Positions 1,122-38,698 of a DNA stretch of 64,000 nt are shown in pieces. Origin of the DNA: Kutzneria viridogrisea (GTDB lineage: Bacteria > Actinomycetota > Actinomycetes > Mycobacteriales > Pseudonocardiaceae); contig JACJID010000001.1 of the NCBI GenBank assembly GCA_014138725.1, positions 1,364,001 to 1,428,000 of the forward strand. Reading direction: 5' to 3'. The translations under genes and the position numbers were made by a program. The stretch's first letter is position 1; the number at the start of each line of letters is the position of its first letter. The notes below the pieces were generated by a model that made no database searches, was not told the origin of the DNA, and saw only the letters and a list, made by a program, of their open reading frames with translations.

Positions 1122-1586
1122 ATGGCAGACACCCCAGCAGCACCGATCGCGGCCCTGGCCCTGCTCGTGTACCTCGTGGGCATGCTGCTCGTGGCGCTCG
1201 CGCGATGGGCCTGGCAGACGGTCGCGATTCAGGATCTTGTTCTCCGCCTAACTGGAGAGAGCAGCTACGTGCCGACGTCGTGGTCGTCACGCCGTCCGCT
1301 GCGGCGCGGCCACGGCCCCCAGCCCGCCCGGCACCGCCGGTGCGGGGGATTCCCGGCCAGCGCGCGCAGCCACGGCACCCGCCGGACGCCGCTGGCCGGG
1401 GCCCAGTCTCCGGCGGGACCTTCCCCGGTTCCCGTCGGACCCAGCTCCGTCCCGACAACCCCCGTTCGCGGGACGGAGGCCGCCACCCTGCGCACGTCGG
1501 CGCGGGGTGGCACCCAGCCCGCTCCGGCGGCACGTGACCACATGAGCACCGTGCCGCCGGAGTGCCCCAGCCGGGGCGCATCGTGA
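1122..1586 (+). CDS. Single-pass membrane protein with a long disordered tail
   Basis: The 154-residue product starts at an ATG preceded by TTGGAG. Residues 10-33 form a hydrophobic segment (AALALLVYLVGMLLVALARW). The remaining roughly 110 residues are rich in Pro, Arg, Ser and Thr and look disordered. The stop overlaps the GTG of the next gene (GTGA), which supports the reading frame. No family recognised. The low-complexity tail makes a frameshift or sequencing error hard to exclude. It heads a five-gene rightward set between the DUF6879 operon and the phage lysis genes. Confidence 0.55.
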   Translation: MADTPAAPIAALALLVYLVGMLLVALARWAWQTVAIQDLVLRLTGESSYVPTSWSSRRPLRRGHGPQPARHRRCGGFPASARSHGTRRTPLAGAQSPAGPSPVPVGPSSVPTTPVRGTEAATLRTSARGGTQPAPAARDHMSTVPPECPSRGAS

Positions 1587-1879
1587 GCGCACTCGATGAC
1601 GCCATCGCCCGCTGGCCAGAGCTGGAGCAGTTGCGGACCTGGCAAGGCTGGACGTGGGAGTACCCGCGCGACGATCGGCTGGTCGGCACCTGTGGGGACG
1701 CGGGAGTGCTGCGGGACCACCTGTCCTACGGCGACCCGGATGGACGGACGCTCGTGTGCGCCTGGATGCGGTTCGCCGACGGCTACCGCCTTCTCGGCCA
1801 TGCGGGCGGCAGCCTCGACAAGGTGCTCGACGTGTATCGGGCGGCACCGGCGTTCGACGAGTTGGAGCGGCGGCCATGA
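1583..1879 (+). CDS. Small protein, first of a tandem paralogous pair
   Basis: The GTG start at 1583 overlaps the previous stop, and the stop overlaps the next start (ATGA at 1876). The 98-residue product begins with a helix, LDDAIARWPELEQLRTWQGW, and continues WTWEYPRDDRL. The same block recurs at the N-terminus of the next gene, so the two are diverged duplicates. The rest is an alpha/beta-looking stretch with no recognisable motif. It is acidic and probably cytoplasmic. Function unknown. Its position beside the lysis cassette, on the opposite strand, suggests cargo rather than a virion gene. Confidence 0.7.
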   Translation: MSALDDAIARWPELEQLRTWQGWTWEYPRDDRLVGTCGDAGVLRDHLSYGDPDGRTLVCAWMRFADGYRLLGHAGGSLDKVLDVYRAAPAFDELERRP

Positions 1880-6784: not shown

Positions 6785-8023
6785 TCACACCCCGACGTCT
6801 TCCAGGATCAGCGTCGCCACCTCGGCCGCGGATCCGTCGCGGGTGATGGTGCCGGTTCCCGACGACCGCAGCAGCGACAGGCCGATCGTCGCCGTGCCCG
6901 CGGTGATGCCGGTGACCTCACCGACCATACAAATCGATTCCCGGGTGCTCGTCGCCTTGACGCCATCGCGCTGGGACTGGAACAGCGTGCCGGACGTGGT
7001 GAGTGAGCTGCCGGCCTGCCACCGCATCTGGTACTGGATCTGGTCGCCCGCGGCAGACGAAAAGCACCCGAAGTTGGCGGTGAGCTTGTACCGCCTGCCT
7101 GCAATCGCCGTGAAGGTGATGCTGTCGGTCACGGTCTCGGCCACGATGCCGGCCACCTGGCTGGTCGCCGACGAACCACCGATCCGGCCGTAGGGCAACG
7201 CCTGCCACGTCGTGGAGCGCCGCACCCACAGAGTCCTCGCGTCAGTGGTGTAGGCCATCTGGCCGTCGTACGGGGTAGTGATCGCCGCATCCCGGTCGGC
7301 AGTCGACGAGCACACGGCGTCGGACTGCACCAGCCAGCCACCCGCGGCGATCGAGTAGACCTCGGCCCAGCGCCGGTCAATGCGCCAGATGCCCATGCCG
7401 TCGTACGGGGTCAAGGTGGCTCGGTCGGTGGCGTCCTTGATGGGCAGCAGCCCGCCGAGCGCGACCATCCATGGTGGACGCAAGTCGTCGATCATCGAGG
7501 CGGTGATCGTGAGCGCGTTGGCTGGCACCCGGATGCGGGCCAACGTGATGTAGTCCGGGCTGTTGGTCGTGGCGCCATTGGTGGTGTTGACGGTGGGGTC
7601 GGTCGGCGTCCCACTGGGCGTGCCCCAGACCGGGATCACGTTGAACCCGTTGACGCTGTCCCACGTCTTGTCGGACACCTGCGCGACGATCAGGTGATTA
7701 GTCTGAAGGCTGCCGTGCGCGGGGTGGCTGGTGAGTAGGTCAATGTTCTTCACCGCGTCGAGGGTCACCACGTAGGACCCAGTACCCCGGCTGGCGGGGA
7801 TCACGGCCTGGAACGGCTGGATCTTGATGGTCTTGTCGGCGACGGTCTGCTGTGCGACCAGGCCGGGCTGTGTCGTCAGGCTGGACGAGCCGACGCGCAG
7901 CCCCTTGCGGACGCTGACGTTGCTGCTACCCGGCGTCCACAGCGCGCTGTCGCCGATCCGGGCGTCGTCGATGGTGACGACACCGCCGGTGTCGCTGACC
8001 CACAGCGGGTTGCGATCGGCCAC
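6785..8023 (-). CDS. Minor tail protein, baseplate/tip component
   Basis: A 412-residue protein rich in Thr, Ser, Asp and Gly throughout, as expected of beta-structured tip proteins. The C-terminal third (about 280-412) looks like a jelly-roll domain: FTAIAGRRYKLTANFGCFS and later ATIGLSLLRSSG. Similar C-terminal domains occur on actinophage minor tail proteins, often tied to surface binding. It lies between the distal tail gene and the Gp37-like gene, with one base to the next start. Exact role not determined. Confidence 0.75.
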   Translation of the reverse strand: MADRNPLWVSDTGGVVTIDDARIGDSALWTPGSSNVSVRKGLRVGSSSLTTQPGLVAQQTVADKTIKIQPFQAVIPASRGTGSYVVTLDAVKNIDLLTSHPAHGSLQTNHLIVAQVSDKTWDSVNGFNVIPVWGTPSGTPTDPTVNTTNGATTNSPDYITLARIRVPANALTITASMIDDLRPPWMVALGGLLPIKDATDRATLTPYDGMGIWRIDRRWAEVYSIAAGGWLVQSDAVCSSTADRDAAITTPYDGQMAYTTDARTLWVRRSTTWQALPYGRIGGSSATSQVAGIVAETVTDSITFTAIAGRRYKLTANFGCFSSAAGDQIQYQMRWQAGSSLTTSGTLFQSQRDGVKATSTRESICMVGEVTGITAGTATIGLSLLRSSGTGTITRDGSAAEVATLILEDVGV

Positions 8024-8038
8024 GAGTTCCTCCAGGGG

Positions 8039-8911
8039 TCAGGCTGCGGCGTCGCGCCAGCGGCAGGTGAGCAGTGCTGCGGGGTCGTAGGACGAGGCCG
8101 TGAAGTCCAGCCGGGTCGCCGTGCCGGGCAGGAGCGGGAACCAGCCGCGCGTCAGCAGCAGGTTCGAGGCGTTGCCGCCGTTGAGGGTGACCGCACGCTG
8201 GTCGGTGTCGAGCACGAGGGACTGGCCAGCAGTGATGGGCACTGTGGGGTCGAAGGCCAGCCGCTCGCCGGTGGCGTGGTTGGTGATGACCGGGCCGGTG
8301 ACCGGGCCGTCAATCTGGAGCGTCGGCCAGCTGGCGACGCTGCCCGTGTTCGTCGCGGTCAGAAAGCCGCCCGTCGGCCCAGTCCCGAAGTCGAACGGTG
8401 CCTGAACGGGGAACTTCAGCCCCGTTGTCGCTGGGCTGGCGAGGGGTGTGGTGAGCACGTGCTCGGCGGGGGAGTACAGCCGCGGGTCGGTTGCCTCCCA
8501 GCGGATCGCGCCCGTGGTGTAGCCGAGCGCATAGTACTTGTCCACGTTGAGGGTTCGGCCCTTGCAGCGGGCCATGGTCATCCAGGACTGGCCGCCGAGC
8601 CGGATCACGAGGGGCTGCTCAACTGGCTGCTCGACAGGCGCGGTCAGGGCTCGCATCCAGTCCACCATGGACTGAAACTGAGCCAGCGGCACGCCCTTGA
8701 CGAGGAAGGAGAACGTGACGACCCGCTTGCCCATCAGCGACGCACCGGGGTACATACCGTGCCGGGACGGCCGGTCGTAGTCGTCGCCGCGCATCTCGGT
8801 CAGGTCGAGCCAGCCCTCCAGCTTGGTGAGCCGGAACGGCGTGGCGCTCCCCAGCAGGGCGCCACGCCACTCCAGTTGGCCATCGGCGGTGATGAGGTCC
8901 CCGGCCGTCAT
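8039..8911 (-). CDS. Distal tail-like protein
   Basis: The start at 8911 overlaps the stop of the tape measure gene (TGATG), so translation is probably coupled; the open frame runs further upstream but inside the tape measure gene. The 290-residue product has the layout of siphovirus distal tail proteins: an N-terminal ring domain to about 130 (with DRPSRHGMYPGASL and FSFLVKGVPL) and a beta-sandwich second half. Such proteins form the hexameric hub joining tail tube and baseplate. Its place straight after the tape measure gene agrees. Confidence 0.78.
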   Translation of the reverse strand: MTAGDLITADGQLEWRGALLGSATPFRLTKLEGWLDLTEMRGDDYDRPSRHGMYPGASLMGKRVVTFSFLVKGVPLAQFQSMVDWMRALTAPVEQPVEQPLVIRLGGQSWMTMARCKGRTLNVDKYYALGYTTGAIRWEATDPRLYSPAEHVLTTPLASPATTGLKFPVQAPFDFGTGPTGGFLTATNTGSVASWPTLQIDGPVTGPVITNHATGERLAFDPTVPITAGQSLVLDTDQRAVTLNGGNASNLLLTRGWFPLLPGTATRLDFTASSYDPAALLTCRWRDAAA

Positions 8912-15428: not shown

Positions 15429-16301
15429 TCAGATGCCCGCGGTCGAGCCGTCGACGTAGGCCACGGCCAGGCACTCGGGACGGACCAGCTTGGCGCCGTA
15501 CAGGGCCAGACCCTTGACGGCGTCGGCGAACTTCGACTCGGGCCGGTACGCCTCGGTCTTGTTGATCTGCTCGGCGAAGCTGATCGCCATGTTCGTGCCT
15601 GCGGTGAGGGCCTGCACCGTGCCGGTCGGCACCGGGGTGTTGTTCGACTCGTAGATGTCGAAGCCTGCGGCGCGGCCGATGTTGCCGTTGCGCAGGGCGT
15701 CCCCGCCGTCGCCGGACTCGTTGACCCGGATGAAGCGGTTGTCCTTGCGCAGAGCGGCCTTGAACTCGGGGGAGACGACCACGTACCGGCCCTCGGTAGG
15801 CACGTTCGCCTTGGTGAGCCGGGCGTCCAGCGGCACGAGCACCTTGTCGTAGGCGTCGGTCGGCGTCGCCAGGGAGATCGGCGAGCCGGTCGAGCCGACG
15901 GTGTTGGCGGTGGGTGCGCCGGTGAAGAGCGCGGCGACATACTGGTCGACGACGTCGGCCAGCTTGTAGGCGGCGCGGCGCATGGCCTCGGGCATGACGT
16001 TGCCCTTGGCCTGCCGGGCGTCCACGTCGTCGACGAAGAACGCGAAGTACTTCGCCTGGTCGATCACCATGGTCCGCTGCGCGTCGGTCAGCTCCTCGGG
16101 GGTGATGACCGTGCTGTTGGGGCTGTAGGTGCCGATGGTCGGGTCCGAGATCGAGGTGATGCGGACGGTGTCACCGGCCTGCGTGATCTCGCCCTCGTAG
16201 TCGCGGTTGACGATGGCGGGGCCCGCGTAGACCAGCTTCTTCCGCAGGGCCACGAGGAGCTGTGCGCTCCAGATTTCGGGGCGGAACCTGGTGATGGACA
16301 T
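15429..16301 (-). CDS. Major capsid (coat) protein
   Basis: The 290-residue protein has the features of the P22 coat-like branch of the HK97 fold: an N-terminal arm (FRPEIWSAQLLVALRKKLVY), IVNRDYEGEI, a spine helix with FFVDDVDARQAKGN, and the long alpha region MRRAAYKLADVVDQYVAAL. A 3' domain includes AGFDIYESNN. It would form the icosahedral shell. It lies just after the scaffold gene, as usual. No decoration insert is obvious, which agrees with separate small decoration genes downstream. Confidence 0.9.
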   Translation of the reverse strand: MSITRFRPEIWSAQLLVALRKKLVYAGPAIVNRDYEGEITQAGDTVRITSISDPTIGTYSPNSTVITPEELTDAQRTMVIDQAKYFAFFVDDVDARQAKGNVMPEAMRRAAYKLADVVDQYVAALFTGAPTANTVGSTGSPISLATPTDAYDKVLVPLDARLTKANVPTEGRYVVVSPEFKAALRKDNRFIRVNESGDGGDALRNGNIGRAAGFDIYESNNTPVPTGTVQALTAGTNMAISFAEQINKTEAYRPESKFADAVKGLALYGAKLVRPECLAVAYVDGSTAGI

Positions 16302-17825: not shown

Positions 17826-20318
17826 TCAGCTCCTTCCCAGCAGCGACAGCACGCCCAGCACGAAGTGCTGAGCCTCGGTGCCAGCGTAAACCACATCGCC
17901 ACGGCCGAAGGTGTCCTGCACCCCGACCTGGAACAGTTCCCACGCCACGCTGGCTGGGTGCTCCCGGTTGCGTGCCTCGTAGGTCTTGCCGGTGTAGGCA
18001 TCCGGCCACTCGTCCGCGAGAGTGATCTCGGCCGGACTGTAGGCACTGCTGCCGGTGACCTTGCTGAGTAGCTGTTCCTCCTCCAGCACACCACTGCGGG
18101 TGGCCCGGCGACGTACGAGCGTGAACTCCATGTGCGTCAGGCCAGGCACCGCCTGTTCCATACGGTGTCCGACCTCGTGGGCGGTGACCTCTGCGGCGTA
18201 GGAGCTGAAGGCGGTGCCAGCCTCGTACGTGTCGGTGTCGAAGGCGATGCGGTCGGCCGTCCTGGTGCCGCTCTTGGCCAGGAAGTAGGCGCGGTCGGTG
18301 GGCAGGATGTCCAGCGGACCACGGGCGTCGGCCAGCTTCAGCCAGTCGGTCGGGTAGATCGACTCGGCTTCCCGCAGCAGATCCACCGCATCGGACCGGA
18401 CTCCGTCCGCTCTCGTGCCGATCCGCTGCTGGTGTCCGGCCATGTCCCGCACCGAGGCCAGCAGGTCGCGCAGGATCTCAGAGTGCCTGGCTCGGGCCTG
18501 TCGCTGCGCCTGTTTTGCCTCAGCGCTGCCGGTGCCGTGCTGGGTGCGGGCCTCCTCCAGCAGGTGTTGTAGTCGCTCGGCCTCGGCGTCCTTGGTGAGC
18601 GCGTCGTAGAAGTCGTTGTGGATCGAGGCTCCGACGTCGAGCACCGTATCGAGGTGCTTCTCGTACTCGCGCGGCGCCAGTCGGCGCCCGTCCGAGGTCA
18701 GTGGGTAGTGGTACCGGGTCTCGACCTGGTGCAGGAACTGCTCGGAGCTATGCACCTCGCCGGGCGCCTTGGCTGCGGTCTCCCGGTAGGAGGTCAGCAT
18801 GTACTCGCGCTGGACGATTGCGCTGTCCAGGTCGCGGGTGCGCTCGCGCAGCAGGTCGTCCCGCTTGTACTTCGGGGTGCGCTTGCGCTTGAACTCCGCC
18901 TGCACCTCGGCGACCAGCTCGTCGCGCTGCTGCTTCAGCTTGTCGAGTTCGGCCTCGGTCTCCCTGATCCGGGTGTCGACTCGCCGCTCGGTGCGGACGA
19001 CGACGTCGTCCCAGTCCTGCCTGGACTTCGGCAGGCTGGCCGCCGCGTGCTTGATCTTCTGGCGCGTCTCCTCGCCGACCTTGGCCCGCGGCTTCGCCGG
19101 TGGCGGTGGCGGGGTCGGCTTGGAGCGCGGAACGATGCCGCCAGCGGCGTCGTCACGGCCCTTCGGGGGGATGTTCCCGGCACCGATCTGCTCGCGGTAC
19201 CGCAGTCGCTTCAGCTGGGGGTGCGCGGCCAGGTGGTCACGCAGTTGGGCCTGTGCCGCGGCGACCTTGCGGCCTGCTGCCTTGTGGCCCTCGTCGTCCA
19301 GTGCCGCGGCCTGGGCCACCTTGTGCCGCCGGATCTTCCGCTCGATCGCGCGCTGCTGCTGCCTGGCCTTGTCGCCCTCGGGGTCCTCGGTGGGCTTGTC
19401 GGGCAACCTGGACAGTCCAGGCAGGTAGGCGGAAACGCTGTGTCGGCAGTTCGGGTGGAACAGGCCCTGTCGCCTTGCCTCGTCCAGCGTGGCCACCACG
19501 TTCACCGTGACGGTCCGGTCGTCCTGGGTGGCGTGCTGCACCTCGATCCGACCAGCCGAGCCGCTCAGGGCAAGGATCTTGCCCTCGAACGGACGGCACA
19601 GCTTGCACTCCTGCGCGGCGTTGCTGACCACGACCAGTTGCACGCCGAGCGCGTCGAGCCGGTCGGTCTGGCCAGCGACGGCAGCGCGCTGGGTGACGGT
19701 GCGGGTGGCCATCTCCACGTAGGACGACAGCTGCCAGCGGCGGCCGGCACGGTCGGTGAACCCGGTGATGCCGCGGTCGGTCAGCCGCCTCCAGGCGGCT
19801 TGTGCTGCGTCGCGGCGGGTCTGTGCGCCGGTGACCAGTCGGGCGGTGGCCGCGGTGATGACTTCGCGGTAGGCGTCGGTGACGTCGCGGAGGATGTTTG
19901 CTGAGCGCTCGCCGACGTCCTGGTGCACTGCGGTGGCCAGTGCTTCGACGGCGCCGAAGCCGGGGACCTCGTCGGCGGTCGCGCGCTGCGCCTCCTCGGC
20001 CAGCTTGGACTGAGGCTTCCACTGTGCTGGCAGGTCGGTCAGCGCCGAGTGCCACCCGGACCGGAACGCGGTGGCAGCCGCCTCCCGCATCGCGGTGCCG
20101 CTGTCGGCGTTCAGGGTGTCAACGATGCCCTGCGCCGAGCGCCGCAGCGCACCGACAGCGGCGAGCTTCCGCTCAGCCCACTCGGGTGCCTGCATGTCCG
20201 AGTCGAGGTTCCCGGCCAGGTGCCGGGCGATGAGCCGCGCGAGCGCGGTCTCGGCTTCCTGGTAGATGTCGGTGACGGTGGCGGCGATCTGGTCGACCTG
20301 CTCGACGTCCACCGCCAT
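17826..20318 (-). CDS. MuF-like minor capsid protein fused to a zinc-metallopeptidase-like domain
   Basis: The 830-residue protein has three parts. The N-terminal 300 residues match phage minor capsid/MuF-type proteins, with AAQECKLCRPFEGKIL and LFHPNCRHSVSAYLPG. The middle (300-620) is charged and helical with a Pro-rich hinge (PTPPPPPAKPRAKVG). The C-terminus holds AHEVGHRM at 713-720, a zinc-binding HEXXH motif, and a possible third ligand Glu at 794 in VAWELFQVG. MuF proteins sit at the portal and may enter the cell with DNA. The protease part could mature the head or act as an injected effector. The ATG is 7 bases from the portal stop. Confidence 0.82.
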   Translation of the reverse strand: MAVDVEQVDQIAATVTDIYQEAETALARLIARHLAGNLDSDMQAPEWAERKLAAVGALRRSAQGIVDTLNADSGTAMREAAATAFRSGWHSALTDLPAQWKPQSKLAEEAQRATADEVPGFGAVEALATAVHQDVGERSANILRDVTDAYREVITAATARLVTGAQTRRDAAQAAWRRLTDRGITGFTDRAGRRWQLSSYVEMATRTVTQRAAVAGQTDRLDALGVQLVVVSNAAQECKLCRPFEGKILALSGSAGRIEVQHATQDDRTVTVNVVATLDEARRQGLFHPNCRHSVSAYLPGLSRLPDKPTEDPEGDKARQQQRAIERKIRRHKVAQAAALDDEGHKAAGRKVAAAQAQLRDHLAAHPQLKRLRYREQIGAGNIPPKGRDDAAGGIVPRSKPTPPPPPAKPRAKVGEETRQKIKHAAASLPKSRQDWDDVVVRTERRVDTRIRETEAELDKLKQQRDELVAEVQAEFKRKRTPKYKRDDLLRERTRDLDSAIVQREYMLTSYRETAAKAPGEVHSSEQFLHQVETRYHYPLTSDGRRLAPREYEKHLDTVLDVGASIHNDFYDALTKDAEAERLQHLLEEARTQHGTGSAEAKQAQRQARARHSEILRDLLASVRDMAGHQQRIGTRADGVRSDAVDLLREAESIYPTDWLKLADARGPLDILPTDRAYFLAKSGTRTADRIAFDTDTYEAGTAFSSYAAEVTAHEVGHRMEQAVPGLTHMEFTLVRRRATRSGVLEEEQLLSKVTGSSAYSPAEITLADEWPDAYTGKTYEARNREHPASVAWELFQVGVQDTFGRGDVVYAGTEAQHFVLGVLSLLGRS

Positions 20319-20324
20319 CGCCGA

Positions 20325-21944
20325 TCACCTCCCGACAGGATCCCCTTGCGGGTCCACCTCGACGCTGGTCGGCTCAGGCGGGCCGACTGTGCCAGTGGCG
20401 GCGATCTGGCTTGCCACCTCGATGGGGTCGGCTGTGCTGGCGCCCTGCTCGTCGCGGATCGCAGCGACCTCGTCGTCGATCTGCTGCTCGTCCCAGTCCG
20501 GGTGCAGCATCTGCACCTTGGTGCGGGTCGAGGCAGCCTCGGCGGCCTGGAGCAGCTGGAGCGTCCGCGCCATCGACTCGGGGTCCTGCGTGGCGGCGTC
20601 GGGCCACTCGACGTCGGGCTCTTCGGCGGTGATGCCCGATCCGAACTGCGTGGCGTCGACGAGCTGGAGCGTCTCCAGGATCTCGGCCAGCTCGGGCCGC
20701 CAGTACTCCTGCTTGCGGCCCCGCGTGGTCTCGCTCTTACGGTCCCTGCTGTTGACCTCGGTCGCAGTGGCCGCAGTCGCCGAGTCCATGCCGAACGATT
20801 GGAGGCTGTACCCGGCGTCGGACACGATCCGGGCCAGCAGCTCGGTCGCGGTGCGCGAATGCTCCTCCACACGGATCGCGAACTGCACGACCTCCAGCTG
20901 CACGGGCCCACCGGGCTGCGGCAGCATGTTGAGGGTCTCGTAGACCTCGCGGTCGGCTTCCCAGCGCGCGCCGCGGCCGGGCCCGTTGCTGTCGAGGTAG
21001 TTCTCCGGGACGACGGCGCGGCCCTTGCCGAGCCGGATGTCGCGCATCCAGCTGGACCACACCTCGTCGAGCTGGTCCATGGGTCCCTCGATCCCGGCGT
21101 AGTCGCTGCGGCCGAGGTAGGCGGCGGCCGGGTTCGCACGCCACAGCCGGTTCGGGCGCATGTTCGGCACGTAGACCGCGGTGAGCCTGTCCACACCGGT
21201 CGGGACGATGTCGCCGGGCAGCATCTGCTCGTCGACGAGGTCGGCGGTTGCCGGGTGGTCCTCCAGCGCCATGCGGGTGCCGAGGGTGTCGGGGCTGCCC
21301 TTGTAGAGGCCGTGGGCGATGGCGCCGGGCTCGTGGCGCTCCAGGTGGCGCCAGACCACGTCGGCGTCCTGGTCGACGATGCGCCAGAAGGTGACCGCGC
21401 CCAAGCTGTCGTAGCACCACTCGGGCACCGCGGCGTCGGCGTGCACGGCGGAGATCCATGGCCCGTCGGGGCGCTGCACCTTGTCCCAGCAGACTCGCAG
21501 GTACACCCCACCGAGCGCGGCCTGCACCTCGGCGGCCTCCAGCAGGGCCGTCTTCAGGCGGCGGGTCAGCTTGTCCAGGCGGGCCTGCGTCTTCTCCGCC
21601 TCGACGGTGATGGTGGGTGGCTCGGAGAACAGCAGGTTGGCGCTCGTGGCGGCGATGTCCCCGGCGATGGGGATGTGCAGCTTCGAGCGCTGCTCGCCCT
21701 GCGGCGTGCGGCGGCCCCACCACATCCGCGAGAAGAACCCGGCCATGCCGCCGCGCGGGTAGCCGCCCTGCTGGGAGGCGAAGAACCCGGTGTTGCCGGG
21801 GTCGGTGCCGATCTGTCCGCCGTAGACAGAGGACAGCTGGTCGGGGTCGCCGCTGTACCAAGCCGACCAGGTGCCCACGCGGGCCTGTACGGGCTGAAGC
21901 TGGCGGGGCGGCCACGGCGTCTTGCCTCCGATGGGGAGCGGCAC
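20325..21944 (-). CDS. Portal protein
   Basis: The 539-residue protein carries the SPP1 gp6-type portal layout: an N-terminal wing (FFSRMWWGRRTPQGEQRSKL, HIPIAGDIAATSANLLF), the crown/stem region, and a C-terminal acidic tail with DWDEQQIDDEVAAIRDEQG. Twelve copies form the DNA channel at one head vertex. The start was set at GTG (VPLPIGGKT) because GAGAGGAGG lies six bases upstream; an in-frame ATG 24 bases earlier has no such site and touches a hairpin. Between the Acb2-like gene and the MuF gene. Confidence 0.9.
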   Translation of the reverse strand: MPLPIGGKTPWPPRQLQPVQARVGTWSAWYSGDPDQLSSVYGGQIGTDPGNTGFFASQQGGYPRGGMAGFFSRMWWGRRTPQGEQRSKLHIPIAGDIAATSANLLFSEPPTITVEAEKTQARLDKLTRRLKTALLEAAEVQAALGGVYLRVCWDKVQRPDGPWISAVHADAAVPEWCYDSLGAVTFWRIVDQDADVVWRHLERHEPGAIAHGLYKGSPDTLGTRMALEDHPATADLVDEQMLPGDIVPTGVDRLTAVYVPNMRPNRLWRANPAAAYLGRSDYAGIEGPMDQLDEVWSSWMRDIRLGKGRAVVPENYLDSNGPGRGARWEADREVYETLNMLPQPGGPVQLEVVQFAIRVEEHSRTATELLARIVSDAGYSLQSFGMDSATAATATEVNSRDRKSETTRGRKQEYWRPELAEILETLQLVDATQFGSGITAEEPDVEWPDAATQDPESMARTLQLLQAAEAASTRTKVQMLHPDWDEQQIDDEVAAIRDEQGASTADPIEVASQIAATGTVGPPEPTSVEVDPQGDPVGR

Positions 21945-21969
21945 GGTGCGCCTCCTCTCGTTCGACATC

Positions 21970-22051: not shown

Positions 22052-22393
22052 TCAGAAGTTGGTGGGCTGGGCGACCGCGCGCACCAGGGCCATGAGCCCG
22101 GTCTGCATGTCGGTGGCGGCGATCGAGGCCCAGCGCTGGTCGACGCCGTCGGTGGCGCGGACCTTGTCGACGAGTTGGCCGAGCTGCTCGCCCTGGGCCT
22201 TGATCTCGTTGATGAGGTCCACCTCGGCCTGCGTGAGGTCGCGGTAGCCGCGCACCGGCGGGGTGTTCGGGTGGATGTTGATCAGCGGTTCGGGCGACTC
22301 GGTGCCGGGCGTCGCCGGGTCGGCCTGGTCCACGGTCGGCGGGTCCATGTCGGTGGGCTCGACGGTGCCGGGCGCATCGGGCTGCTCGGTCAT
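22052..22393 (-). CDS. Acb2/Tad1-like cyclic-nucleotide sponge (anti-CBASS candidate)
   Basis: The 113-residue protein has a Pro/Thr-rich disordered start (1-47), then a helical hairpin: YRDLTQAEVDLINEIKAQGE (50-69), LGQLVDKVRA, then VDQRWASIAATDMQTGLMAL (84-103) and VRAVAQPTNF. The pattern RDLT--E---INEIK with later RW--IA-TD-Q-G-MAL-RAVA is, from memory, that of the Acb2/Tad1 hairpin domain. Acb2 binds CBASS cyclic di- and trinucleotides, Tad1 the Thoeris signal, hiding them from defence effectors. Its start overlaps the TerL stop (ATGA). The class is fairly secure; the ligand is not. Confidence 0.78.
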   Translation of the reverse strand: MTEQPDAPGTVEPTDMDPPTVDQADPATPGTESPEPLINIHPNTPPVRGYRDLTQAEVDLINEIKAQGEQLGQLVDKVRATDGVDQRWASIAATDMQTGLMALVRAVAQPTNF

Positions 22394-23682
22394 GCTGCTG
22401 CCTCCAGGAGGTGCGGGCGCCACAGCGCCTCGGTGGTCTTCAGGACGTACCGGCCAGCGTCGAGGCTGTGGTCGGCGTCCTTAATCGGCCGGTCTTCGCC
22501 CTTGGCCGCGGCCTTGTCGTCCCAGGAGTAGCCGCCAACCTCCTCGATCCACCCGGCGCATGAGCGATGCACGAGCAGGAGCCCGGCGGCCAGCAGCGAC
22601 GAGATAAGGCGGATGCCGTCGAGCACGCTGTTGTCAGCCAGCGTGGGGGACAGGCCGTCGCGGTAGAGCTGGGCAACGAACGAGGCGGCCGAGGGGTCAA
22701 CGACTGTCCACTCGGGATGCACGCCGAGGACGCTCGGTGCGCCGGGGTGGGGGATGCGGGCGAGCCAGCCGCGGAGCCGCTCGGAGTACTCGTGATCGGT
22801 GAGGGACCGGCGCGCGGCCTTCGAGTCGTAGCGCCACTCGTTGGTCAGGTACAGGCGGCCGTCTGCGCCGAGGCCGAGCACGAGCCCGGCGAACGGGTTC
22901 ACCGTGCCGTAGTCGACGCCCAACCCGATCCACCGGTCGATGCGCGGCAGGATGTCGACGACGTGCCGGTCGGGGTCCCACATGTCGTAGATCGCGCCCT
23001 GCGCGAGGACCCACTCGCCGAGGACGAAGCGCCGGTAGAACAGGCCGACGTACTCGCGCTTGAGGGCGTCCACGTAGGACGCGGAGAGCGTGGGGTTGTC
23101 GGCGAGCTGGAACGTGAACCGGTGAAGGTCCAACGCGCCGGGGTCGGCGGACTCGACGATGCGGCCGTCGCGGGTGAGGTGCAGGCTGGCCCGGTCGAGG
23201 TAGTCCTTCTTGAACCAGTGGTTTGGGCCCTCAGGGTTGGTCGTCCCGAACCCCTGGGCGCCGTCGGTGCTGAGCCGGGTGCCGAGCATCGAGAAGAACG
23301 ACTGCGGGTAGGTGGTGACCTCGTCGCAGTAGGCCCCGGAGAGCGTGAGGCCCTTGATCTTGTCGGAGGCCAGCTCATTGTTGGCACCGACGGTGTAGAT
23401 GGTGCGGCCGAAGAGGTCGAGCTCGCCGGCGCCCTCGCGGTAGCGGCAGCGGCGCTTGCCAACCATCTCCTGGATCGGGTCGATGACGTTGCGCTTCAGG
23501 GTGCGTTCGGTCTTGCCGACCATGAGCAGGTTGCCGCTCGGTCCCGTTCGGACGTAGCGCAGCCAGTTGAGAATGCTGCACACGGTCTTCGAGGACCGGA
23601 CCGCTCCCTCCCAGATGTTCCAGCGGGCGGTGGCCAGGCGAAGGCTTTCGCGCTGCTTGCCGACGAGCGGGGTGACGGCCAT
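22390..23682 (-). CDS. Terminase large subunit
   Basis: The 430-residue protein starts at MAVTPLVGKQ. The ATPase domain has a Walker A-type GAVRSSKT (26-33) and a Walker B region LSGAYCDEV with Asp120-Glu121. The nuclease domain has GLGVDYG with Asp257 and a C-terminal DADHSLDAGRY. This is the PBSX/SPP1-type terminase that packages DNA into the head and cuts it. It follows the small subunit, and overlaps the Acb2-like gene by four bases. Confidence 0.93.
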   Translation of the reverse strand: MAVTPLVGKQRESLRLATARWNIWEGAVRSSKTVCSILNWLRYVRTGPSGNLLMVGKTERTLKRNVIDPIQEMVGKRRCRYREGAGELDLFGRTIYTVGANNELASDKIKGLTLSGAYCDEVTTYPQSFFSMLGTRLSTDGAQGFGTTNPEGPNHWFKKDYLDRASLHLTRDGRIVESADPGALDLHRFTFQLADNPTLSASYVDALKREYVGLFYRRFVLGEWVLAQGAIYDMWDPDRHVVDILPRIDRWIGLGVDYGTVNPFAGLVLGLGADGRLYLTNEWRYDSKAARRSLTDHEYSERLRGWLARIPHPGAPSVLGVHPEWTVVDPSAASFVAQLYRDGLSPTLADNSVLDGIRLISSLLAAGLLLVHRSCAGWIEEVGGYSWDDKAAAKGEDRPIKDADHSLDAGRYVLKTTEALWRPHLLEAAA

Positions 23683-23693
23683 CGTGCCCCCGT

Positions 23694-24170
23694 TCAGTCT
23701 CCGATCATGTCGCGGAGCCACTGGTCGACGGCGGCCAAGCCGTGGGTGTCGGCGTCGTGGGCCTCAATGCGCATCACCTTGTCGAGGGCGACGCCGGTGG
23801 CCTGGAGGATCTTCAGCTGGGCGGCGAAGTCGGGGCGCTCGTGCCATTCTTCGCTGTAGACGTTGTCGCGTCCGCCGAAGGAGTAGACCCGGCAGGGCTG
23901 CCACAGCTGCTCGCGGATGCGTTCGGCGTCACCGAGGAGGTTCAGGGCGAGCGCGGCGCGGCGGCTCTTCGCGTCGGCGACCTTGGCCTCGGTGGCGGCA
24001 CGGGTCTTGGACCGGTCGAAGGTGAGGCCCAGTTCCTTCGCCAGCTTCGAGACGGTGGAGGCCGAGCGGCCGATGGCGCGGCCGATCTCGTTCCGGGTGA
24101 GCCCCTGCGCGTGCAGCTCGCGGACACGCTGCCGATCCTGCTCGGTGAGGGGCGGGTTGCCGTTGGGCAC
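23694..24170 (-). CDS. Terminase small subunit
   Basis: The 158-residue protein starts at GTG (VPNGNPPLTEQ) with GGAGG eight bases upstream. A helix-turn-helix occupies about residues 8-45 (DRQRVRELHAQGLTRNEIGR, then AIGRSASTVSKLAKELGL), as used by small subunits to bind the packaging site. The rest is helical and could form the oligomer core. It is first in the late operon; the packaging site is probably in or near this gene. Confidence 0.82.
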   Translation of the reverse strand: MPNGNPPLTEQDRQRVRELHAQGLTRNEIGRAIGRSASTVSKLAKELGLTFDRSKTRAATEAKVADAKSRRAALALNLLGDAERIREQLWQPCRVYSFGGRDNVYSEEWHERPDFAAQLKILQATGVALDKVMRIEAHDADTHGLAAVDQWLRDMIGD

Positions 24171-24271
24171 GGTGACCACCTCCTCGCGCGCGACCGGTAG
24201 CGCGACCGGGCGCGGTGGTGGTCGCGGTCTGTGCAGGTAACGCGCTTGCAGAGCCGAGCGAAGTTCAGCCC
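24171..24271. promoter_or_regulatory. Divergent control region, start of the late operon
   Basis: This 101-base gap separates the leftward terminase gene from a rightward small gene, so two promoters are expected. The sequence includes GGTAACGCGCTTGCAGAG. No strong consensus boxes can be named. The late promoter for the whole structural operon is likely here or just upstream, because the terminator at 24459-24493 would block read-through from the early genes. Confidence 0.4.
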
Positions 24272-24454
24272 ATGAGTGTGCGAGTGAAGAAGCCAGTTGG
24301 CGGTGACGCCACATTCGAACAAGGTGCCTCGATCAAGGTGGAGGAAGGGCACCTGCATGTCATGGGTGAGTCTGACGGCTACGGCGGCGATGTCGTTGCG
24401 ATCTACGCACCCAGCCAATGGAAGTCGGCGTCGGTCGGCGCAGACGAGAAGTAA
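24272..24454 (+). CDS. Small rightward protein at the early/late boundary
   Basis: A 60-residue protein, MSVRVKKPVGGDATFEQGAS and onward, mostly beta-like, ending in a charged tail. It is one of only a few phage genes on the + strand and lies alone between the early and late operons with its own terminator. An own transcript, perhaps made in the lysogen, is likely. No family recognised, but coding is supported by the divergent layout and the downstream hairpin. Confidence 0.55.
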   Translation: MSVRVKKPVGGDATFEQGASIKVEEGHLHVMGESDGYGGDVVAIYAPSQWKSASVGADEK

Positions 24455-37367: not shown

Positions 37368-37480
37368 GCCGCAGCGTGGCCTCGGTACTTCCCCTGCCGA
37401 GGCCACGCCACTCGCTCGCGCTCTTCGCGCACACACGACGTCCCGCGGCCACGGGGCTGCGGGTGAGGAGGGGCAGCCGC

Positions 37481-38698
37481 ATGCCAGACGATCTGTGGTA
37501 CCTGAAGAAGAAGGGCGACGACAAGCCGTTGCCCAGCAAGAGACACGGGCGCGGCTCGCGGTGGCGAGTCCGCTGGACCGACCCCATCACCGGCAAGGAC
37601 AGGTCCGAGCTGTTCGAGCGCCGGGCCGACGCCGAGCGACACGAGAACAGCATCAAGGCCGACATCAGCCGCGGCCAGTACATCGACCCGCGCGACGGGC
37701 AGATCACAGTCGCCGAGTACGCCGAGGAGTGGCGGAAGTCGTTGCTCCAGCGCAAGAACACGGCGGCGAACGTCGAACGGTTTCTCCGCCTGCACATAGT
37801 CCCTGTACTGGGACATCTGCCGCTCGCGGGTGTGCGGGCCTCGCACATCCGAAGCTGGGTCCTCGACAGGTCGGCCGTTCTCGCGCCCAACTCGCTTCAC
37901 AGGGTGTATAGCGGCGTGCTTGCGGCGCTGTTCAAGTCCGCGCTCGTCGACCGCCGCATCGGTTTCTCGCCATGCCTTGGGATTCGCCTGCCGGAACTCG
38001 TCGATCCGCAGTACACCATCGCCACTGCCGAACAGGTGCACGCGCTGTCGGAGGCGCTGCCCAAGAGGTTCGGCGCAGTCCCGATCTTCGCTGCTGGATG
38101 TGGATGGCGTGCGGGCGAGATTATGGGCCTGGAGCCCGAGGGGCTGAACTTCCTGCGTCGTGAGGCGTACGTTCGTCAACAGCTCCTGAATGTACCCAAG
38201 GCGCCGCTGCGGATCGCGCGACCGAAAACGCGCACGAGTGTTCGTACCAATGAAATGGCCGACCTGGTGCGGTTGACAATGGCGCGGCACCTGGAGCGAT
38301 TCCCGCCGACGACAGTGGAGATCGAGGACGAGACCGACGATCCGCGCAGGCCGGTTCAGCGCAAGGCCAAGCTGATTTTCACGCTGGAGAACGGCAAGCC
38401 GATCAGCAGTGCTGCCTGGTCGCTGATCTGGGCCCCCGCGGTCAAGGCTGTCGGCCTGCCCGCCGGATACGGGCTGCGTGACCTGCGCCATTTCTACGCC
38501 ACGGTCCTGATCTACGGCGGGGCATCGGTCAAGACGGTGCAGAAAGCCCTCGGGCACACCAAGCCGTCGACGACGCTCGACGTCTACACCGGGTACTGGC
38601 CGGAGGCCGCCGCACAGAACCGGGTTCTGGTGCAGGACGCACTGACGGTTGCCTCGGCAGATGGCGCCACTCTGGCGAGCGGCCAAGATCAACAGTAG
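37481..38698 (+). CDS. int: Tyrosine recombinase (phage integrase)
   Basis: The 405-residue protein starts MPDDLWYLKKKGDDK; GGAGG lies upstream. It has an arm-binding N-terminus (SRWRVRWTDPITGKDR), a core-binding SAM-like domain (ITVAEYAEEWRKSL) and a catalytic domain with Arg210 (GCGWRAGE), RDLRH (Arg336, His337), His359 (LGHTKPSTTL) and nucleophile Tyr369. The His of the usual HxxR motif is Arg333 here, as in some other actinobacterial integrases. It would integrate at a site beyond its 3' end. Confidence 0.92.
   Translation: MPDDLWYLKKKGDDKPLPSKRHGRGSRWRVRWTDPITGKDRSELFERRADAERHENSIKADISRGQYIDPRDGQITVAEYAEEWRKSLLQRKNTAANVERFLRLHIVPVLGHLPLAGVRASHIRSWVLDRSAVLAPNSLHRVYSGVLAALFKSALVDRRIGFSPCLGIRLPELVDPQYTIATAEQVHALSEALPKRFGAVPIFAAGCGWRAGEIMGLEPEGLNFLRREAYVRQQLLNVPKAPLRIARPKTRTSVRTNEMADLVRLTMARHLERFPPTTVEIEDETDDPRRPVQRKAKLIFTLENGKPISSAAWSLIWAPAVKAVGLPAGYGLRDLRHFYATVLIYGGASVKTVQKALGHTKPSTTLDVYTGYWPEAAAQNRVLVQDALTVASADGATLASGQDQQ

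Follow-up and report, generated by a model that had tools for sequence, protein, structure and literature searches.

A prophage of Kutzneria viridogrisea carries among its head and packaging genes a gene for an Acb2-type protein, which probably acts as a nucleotide sponge for cyclic oligonucleotides and would blunt CBASS, provided that it binds such ligands and assembles as a hexamer in the manner of known Acb2. An anti-defence function is plausible from homology and from the ligand-pocket residues that the protein has kept. The family is a known one and Acb2 calls in actinophages are already in print; the host group is one in which the family is rare, and the protein has an odd N-terminal tail.

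The gene was found on the minus strand of the 64,000-nucleotide stretch of DNA that was analysed (the window) as an open frame of 113 codons, running from an ATG at 22393 to a stop at 22052. Its ATG overlaps the stop codon of the terminase large-subunit gene by four bases (ATGA, 22390-22393), and on the basis of this overlap the two genes appear to be translationally coupled. An earlier reading of the letters without database searches (the sequence-only reading) had proposed a gene coupled to the terminase within a packaging operon, and the overlap, together with the terminase gene upstream and the portal gene downstream, confirms this arrangement:

22052..22393, minus strand: acb2-like gene, 113 aa, ATG start (translation; PF24729 match of 69.1 bits)
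22067..22249, minus strand: Acb2/Tad1 helical hairpin domain, residues 49-109 (Pfam, with the same span in the whole-genome search; AlphaFold2 helices 55-80 and 86-108)
22250..22393, minus strand: N-terminal tail, residues 1-48, acidic, proline-rich and predicted to be unstructured (alignment; AlphaFold2)
22401..22405, minus strand: GGAGG, likely ribosome-binding site of the acb2-like gene, within the end of terL and 7 bases 5' of the ATG
22390..23721, minus strand: terminase large subunit, upstream neighbour (PF03237; phrog_2, E 1.1e-44)
23694..24314, minus strand: HTH protein (phrog_5536 of PHROGs) at the place of the terminase small subunit, its presumed role
20325..21968, minus strand: portal protein, downstream neighbour (phrog_533, E 1.7e-114)
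17826..20318, minus strand: minor head protein of the same gene cluster (PF06152, Phage_min_cap2, E 2.9e-67)
15429..16301, minus strand: major head protein of the same gene cluster (phrog_267, E 2.8e-74)

A weakly scaffold-like protein is also encoded among the same-strand neighbours of the acb2-like gene, and further minus-strand genes specify a tape measure protein, a minor tail protein, an endolysin, a primase, an exonuclease and a RusA-like resolvase; an integrase gene (37376-38698) lies on the opposite strand. The gene content of the region is that of a temperate phage, present here as a prophage, and of the seven proteins, from HTH to major head protein, that were compared with those of a 38.5 kb IMG/VR viral contig, every one is 100% identical there. 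The minor head protein, at 830 residues, has a long C-terminal extension past its Phage_min_cap2 domain (residues 6-363), of which residues 613-785 give weak matches to PHROGs of unknown function; an HEVGH sequence spotted by eye in this extension is presumably a metallopeptidase-like motif.

The 113-residue product matches the Pfam family Acb2_Tad1_hairpin (PF24729) at 69.1 bits against a cut-off of 27 (E 3.6e-19), the match covering residues 49-109 of the protein and the profile from end to end (1-58 of 58), and a match of this strength is therefore not due to chance. It is the single PF24729 match in the entire K. viridogrisea genome. NCBIfam returned a sub-cut-off match only, and none of the PADLOC models matched the protein at E 0.001. 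A phmmer search of solved structures found Acb2 p26 (8h2j, E 2.4e-13), the sole other kind of protein up to E 1 being a retron-system ATPase at E 0.57, while a profile built from 51 homologues reached Acb2 8h2j at E 1.2e-28 and T4 Vs.4 (7uq2) at E 1.1e-4, followed by five more entries with E of at least 0.13. In the single-chain AlphaFold2 model, the two helices (55-80 and 86-108) fall in a region of high confidence, with block pLDDT of 91-98 over residues 51-110; residues 1-50 show no secondary structure (block pLDDT 52-72), and the overall mean pLDDT is 80 with a pTM of 0.53. When this predicted model was submitted to Foldseek, the top eight matches were Acb2 (8h2x, 8h2j) and Vs.4 (7uq2), all with probability 1.00, and the ninth fell to 0.15. 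These results support the assignment of the protein to the Acb2-type rather than the Tad1-type members of the family, as judged from sequence and predicted fold. The sequence-only reading had described a disordered N-terminus followed by a helical hairpin bearing the patterns RDLT, INEIK, RW--IA-TD-Q-G and RAVAQP, and had proposed an HMM search and a structure prediction as checks; all four patterns are present, and the Pfam match and the AlphaFold2 model agree with that description. A search of genome contigs with the single protein yielded one relative, in an Azonexus MAG, and the nearest viral homologue found, identical copies aside, is 75% identical; an integrase gene lies downstream of this viral homologue (PHROGs; L023).

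Equivalents of T4 residues that others have linked to ligand binding are conserved in the window protein. In the alignment with T4 Acb2, Tyr50 corresponds to T4 Tyr8 and Thr94 to T4 Thr68; in T4 Acb2, Y8A is described as disrupting and T68M as decreasing binding (PMC12657218, PMC12657230). Tyr50, Lys65 and Thr94 are invariant in eight of eight diverse proteins, including that of T4 and two other actinobacterial ones. The same three residues are invariant in 51 of 51 close homologues (window protein counted), as are Arg87, Trp88, Gln97, Arg105, Pro110 and Phe113, though this set is biased to conservation, consisting of the best-scoring loci, mostly retrieved by means of peptide patterns in which Gly-Tyr-Arg or Gln, Gly, Met and Arg are fixed and which favour Tyr50. 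More distant members differ at some conserved positions, T4 having no Arg-Trp and JBD67 a C-terminal Cys. T4 Phe82, which base-stacks with the ligand, is replaced by Ala108 in the window protein; this residue was not taken as defining for the Acb2 family, because PaP2 Acb2 p26 also has Ala at that place. Residues Tyr11 and Lys26 of Pseudomonas Acb2 fit the phmmer alignment with the window protein.

The N-terminal tail sets the protein apart. In 49 of the 51 aligned proteins, 5-9 residues precede the conserved Gly-Tyr, often as MDNQH or MENQH, with 24 in one other (L033) and 48 in the window protein. The tail is probably real, since the start codon is well supported. Its residues 1-47 include nine acidic residues and twelve prolines with neither Lys nor Arg, and the Acb2 proteins compared here have no such tail. 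One distinctly unlikely function for it would be to tether the sponge to the packaging machinery or the virion, so that the protein might be concentrated at assembling capsids or delivered ready-made to the next cell; were this true, the coupling to the terminase would reflect functional timing or delivery more than gene order.

The position of the gene was compared with that of homologues in 20 annotated phage records, hand-picked for diversity from the listed rows of 233 matches among 50,697 records. In 8 of these 20 hand-picked phages (Mwe-JY05, Ab9, the Thiohalocapsa phage, PB119, Lsp-JY19, PS6, SS2019XII and D96a) the homologue is at most two genes away from one annotated with a head or packaging function (terminase, portal, capsid, protease or scaffold). 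MKPT02 was left out of the eight, its terminase being two or three annotated genes off and its matching frame itself unannotated. The other 11 place the homologue beside or after tail genes or 4-5 genes from a terminase, or near replication genes, near RecT, thymidylate synthase or lysis genes, or among genes of unknown function; homologues thus show no fixed position beside packaging genes. The homologue of PaMx41 and T4 vs.4, which was fetched separately, are located among early-type genes. Two orders come close to that of the window, namely terminase, homologue, one gene and portal in PS6, and terminase, one gene, homologue and portal in the viral locus L065. Additionally, JBD67 has a single matching place, and the gene two before it encodes a protein with 96% identity to what is annotated in SS2019XII as a capsid component. 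Late placement had been regarded in the sequence-only reading as unexpected; this did not hold, as 8 of the 20 hand-picked phages and JBD67 have the homologue near head or packaging genes. Sponge genes among structural genes are common in the sampled phages, and the JBD67 precedent works according to others, who have studied its acb2 deletion (PMC13083879). The sections available from literature naming Acb2 together with terminase, a scope that most subscription papers fall outside, do not discuss the location of the acb2 gene. CBASS escape mutations have been mapped to a major capsid gene, which offers a plausible reason for a sponge among structural genes, though those papers do not show direct activation by the capsid (PMC10286901, PMC10419184).

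For a wider scan, 60 dereplicated viral loci were used and the largest open frame flanking each of them upstream (59 frames) and downstream (58 frames) was compared with PHROGs, after removal from the initial 89 of two copies of the window's prophage (L001, L022), one locus with an internal stop (L002) and one truncated locus (L010). With a rough, simple gene caller and counts made per family rather than per locus, among the best 25 of 117 and 25 of 116 families, portal phrog_146 was found in 4 of 59 upstream frames and terminase phrog_2 in 4 of 58 downstream frames, and the neighbours were mixed, with helicase, exonuclease, RNA ligase, primase and ribonucleotide reductase families also represented.

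The distribution of CBASS among hosts is in keeping with part of the claim, made in the sequence-only reading, that hosts of this phage family carry such defences. Of six congeners (G004 being left out of the SMODS search), two possess CBASS cyclase operons, the cyclase adjoining an HNH-SAVED effector gene in one (G001) and accompanied by E2 and E1-E2-like genes in the other (G003). The claim did not extend to the lysogen itself, whose genome gave no match to the SMODS, DncV-like NTFase and SAVED models or to two PADLOC cyclase models, a set that other cyclase types could escape. SAVED matched 8 of 100 relatives, the unmatched lysogen genome being among the 100. The hairpin family PF24729 occurs in 3 of 100 relatives and in 4 of 394 sampled genomes of the class, the lysogen genome counted in both, and of five other hairpin-bearing genomes only one (G476) gave SMODS matches; hairpin and CBASS are thus not simply paired within one genome. 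A sponge on a prophage in a CBASS-less host would be understandable if the phage moves between strains. The mCpol cyclase of Panoptes had no match in 10 genomes, that of the lysogen included. One viral sponge homologue is broken by an in-frame stop codon (L002, about 7986-8207), and altered or shortened acb2 copies are described in phages T2 and PaMx41 (PMC12657218); such copies might perhaps be caused by Panoptes punishing sponges.

The arrangement of the gene could also be explained if the hairpin had been recruited as a head or packaging accessory, for instance one that binds the terminase or the portal through its acidic tail, with the sponge role lost. The ATGA overlap, the similar terminase-hairpin-portal neighbourhoods of PS6 and L065, the unusual tail and the lack of a match in the lysogen to the five CBASS-related models are all compatible with such a part. 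A packaging part, however, would be expected to stay with packaging genes, and the pocket residues are kept while the position of the gene varies, from early-type surroundings in T4 and PaMx41 to RecT, thymidylate synthase and lysis genes elsewhere; we therefore consider this explanation unlikely. That the gene is a decaying, functionless leftover is hardly credible, given an intact frame with a good ribosome-binding site and a terminase overlap, in which the family-conserved residues are retained.

Other targets for a sponge also have to be weighed. Acb2 binds cyclic trinucleotides according to a review (PMC12043709) and the five models found no CBASS in the lysogen, both of which would suit a sponge directed mainly at a cyclic-nucleotide system other than CBASS, such as type III CRISPR cA3 signalling; against this stand the CBASS cyclase operons of the two congeners, and we regard it as very unlikely. 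Extremely improbable is a Tad1-like role in which the protein counters Thoeris by sequestering gcADPR. Pfam unites the Acb2 and Tad1 hairpins in one family, and the lysogen genome contains one ThsB_TIR match, at 22.6 bits against a cut-off of 21.2. However, Tad1 chains were missing from the phmmer results against solved structures, both for the full protein (to E 1) and for its C-terminal 65 residues (to E 10), Tad1 was absent from the best 50 of 131 Foldseek rows, and the AlphaFold2 model contains no strand, whereas Tad1 has an N-terminal antiparallel beta-sheet (PMC12043709). Tad1 chains are present in the structure library, where a more distant hairpin protein (L012) reaches them at E 0.57. 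Membership of the Tad1 group was rejected on these grounds, so that of the Acb2/Tad1-type assignment made in the sequence-only reading the Acb2 part is upheld by Pfam, phmmer and Foldseek and the Tad1 part is not. The ThsB_TIR locus of the lysogen was likewise not accepted as Thoeris, its score lying just over the cut-off and its PADLOC matches being weak and of TIR type, with none for the adjoining 999-aa frame; judged by the ThsB_TIR model and PADLOC only, Thoeris in the lysogen is unlikely. This TIR-like gene, of about 265 aa, and the 999-aa frame beside it are on contig C7 of the host genome (L118, 4167-7956, minus strand).

For the preferred reading of an Acb2-type sponge directed at CBASS, the C-terminal helical hairpin would assemble as the known Acb2 hexamer and trap the cyclic dinucleotides, and probably the cyclic trinucleotides, made by CBASS cyclases during infection or induction, and with these signals trapped the suicide effectors would stay off, to the presumed benefit of the phage. 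Through its coupling to the terminase, the sponge would probably be made alongside the head and packaging genes, at a time when CBASS signalling is probably in progress. Acb2 is described in a review as active in induction and not in lysogenic maintenance (PMC12043709). With this gene an Acb2-type sponge is recorded in a temperate phage whose host is a large-genome actinobacterium, a setting in which the hairpin family is rare, and the CBASS cyclase operons of two of six congeners suggest that CBASS exerts pressure on phages of this genus. The occurrence of sponge genes among structural genes in several unrelated phages would fit a signal that rises late in infection.

Several related loci were observed in the course of these searches. 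In the bacterial family to which the host belongs, a 70-aa protein (L012 in G043, 1489-1701, minus strand) is encoded at a place that scores 83 bits on PF24729, above the window protein; its sequence pattern is a different one, its match in the PDB is 9ptq, 'Acb2 homolog 43' (E 8.8e-8), and it is a separate branch of the hairpin family. In another genus of the same bacterial family (L013 in G026), an Acb2-like gene adjoins an opposite-strand frame of 410 aa that appears integrase-like by eye. Two contigs of one genome (G316 C2 and C3; L102, L105) gave equal-score hairpin-family matches with identical hairpin sequence. Several Pseudomonas phages (L132 and others) have Acb2 homologues annotated as 'NAD/FAD-utilizing enzyme', which looks like a propagated misannotation.

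The window protein exhibits similarity to Acb2 p26 of Pseudomonas phage PaP2 and relatives (8H2J/8H2X), with which it shares the helical hairpin, the GYRDL start, the RW..I..TD.QTG helix and the QP..F end; the phmmer alignment of the pair falls into two stretches, and that of Foldseek extends across 86-88 columns. It differs in its 48-residue acidic tail and short inter-helix turn, where the PaP2 protein has a short MDNQH start and a long inter-helix insert. T4 Vs.4 (7UQ2) has the same fold with a probability of 1.00 and the equivalents of its Tyr8 and Thr68 are kept here, but identity is 30%, Phe82 is replaced by Ala, and the T4 gene sits among early-type genes. With Tad1 (7UAV/8SMD) the protein shares the name of the Pfam hairpin family. 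Acb2 has been annotated in the actinobacteriophages Statler, Xandras and BigBubba (PMC13348362, PMC11953737), which are likened to the window by annotation and not by sequence; Statler gp57 is far from the capsid maturation protease gp24, and the genes of Xandras and BigBubba are reported as numbers 101 of 144 and 102 of 147, respectively. JBD67 Acb2 has a structural-gene neighbourhood like that of the window, its gene lying two after the capsid gene, while it comes from a phage of a different host phylum and is distinguished from the window protein by a long inter-helix insert, a C-terminal Cys in place of Phe and the lack of an acidic tail.
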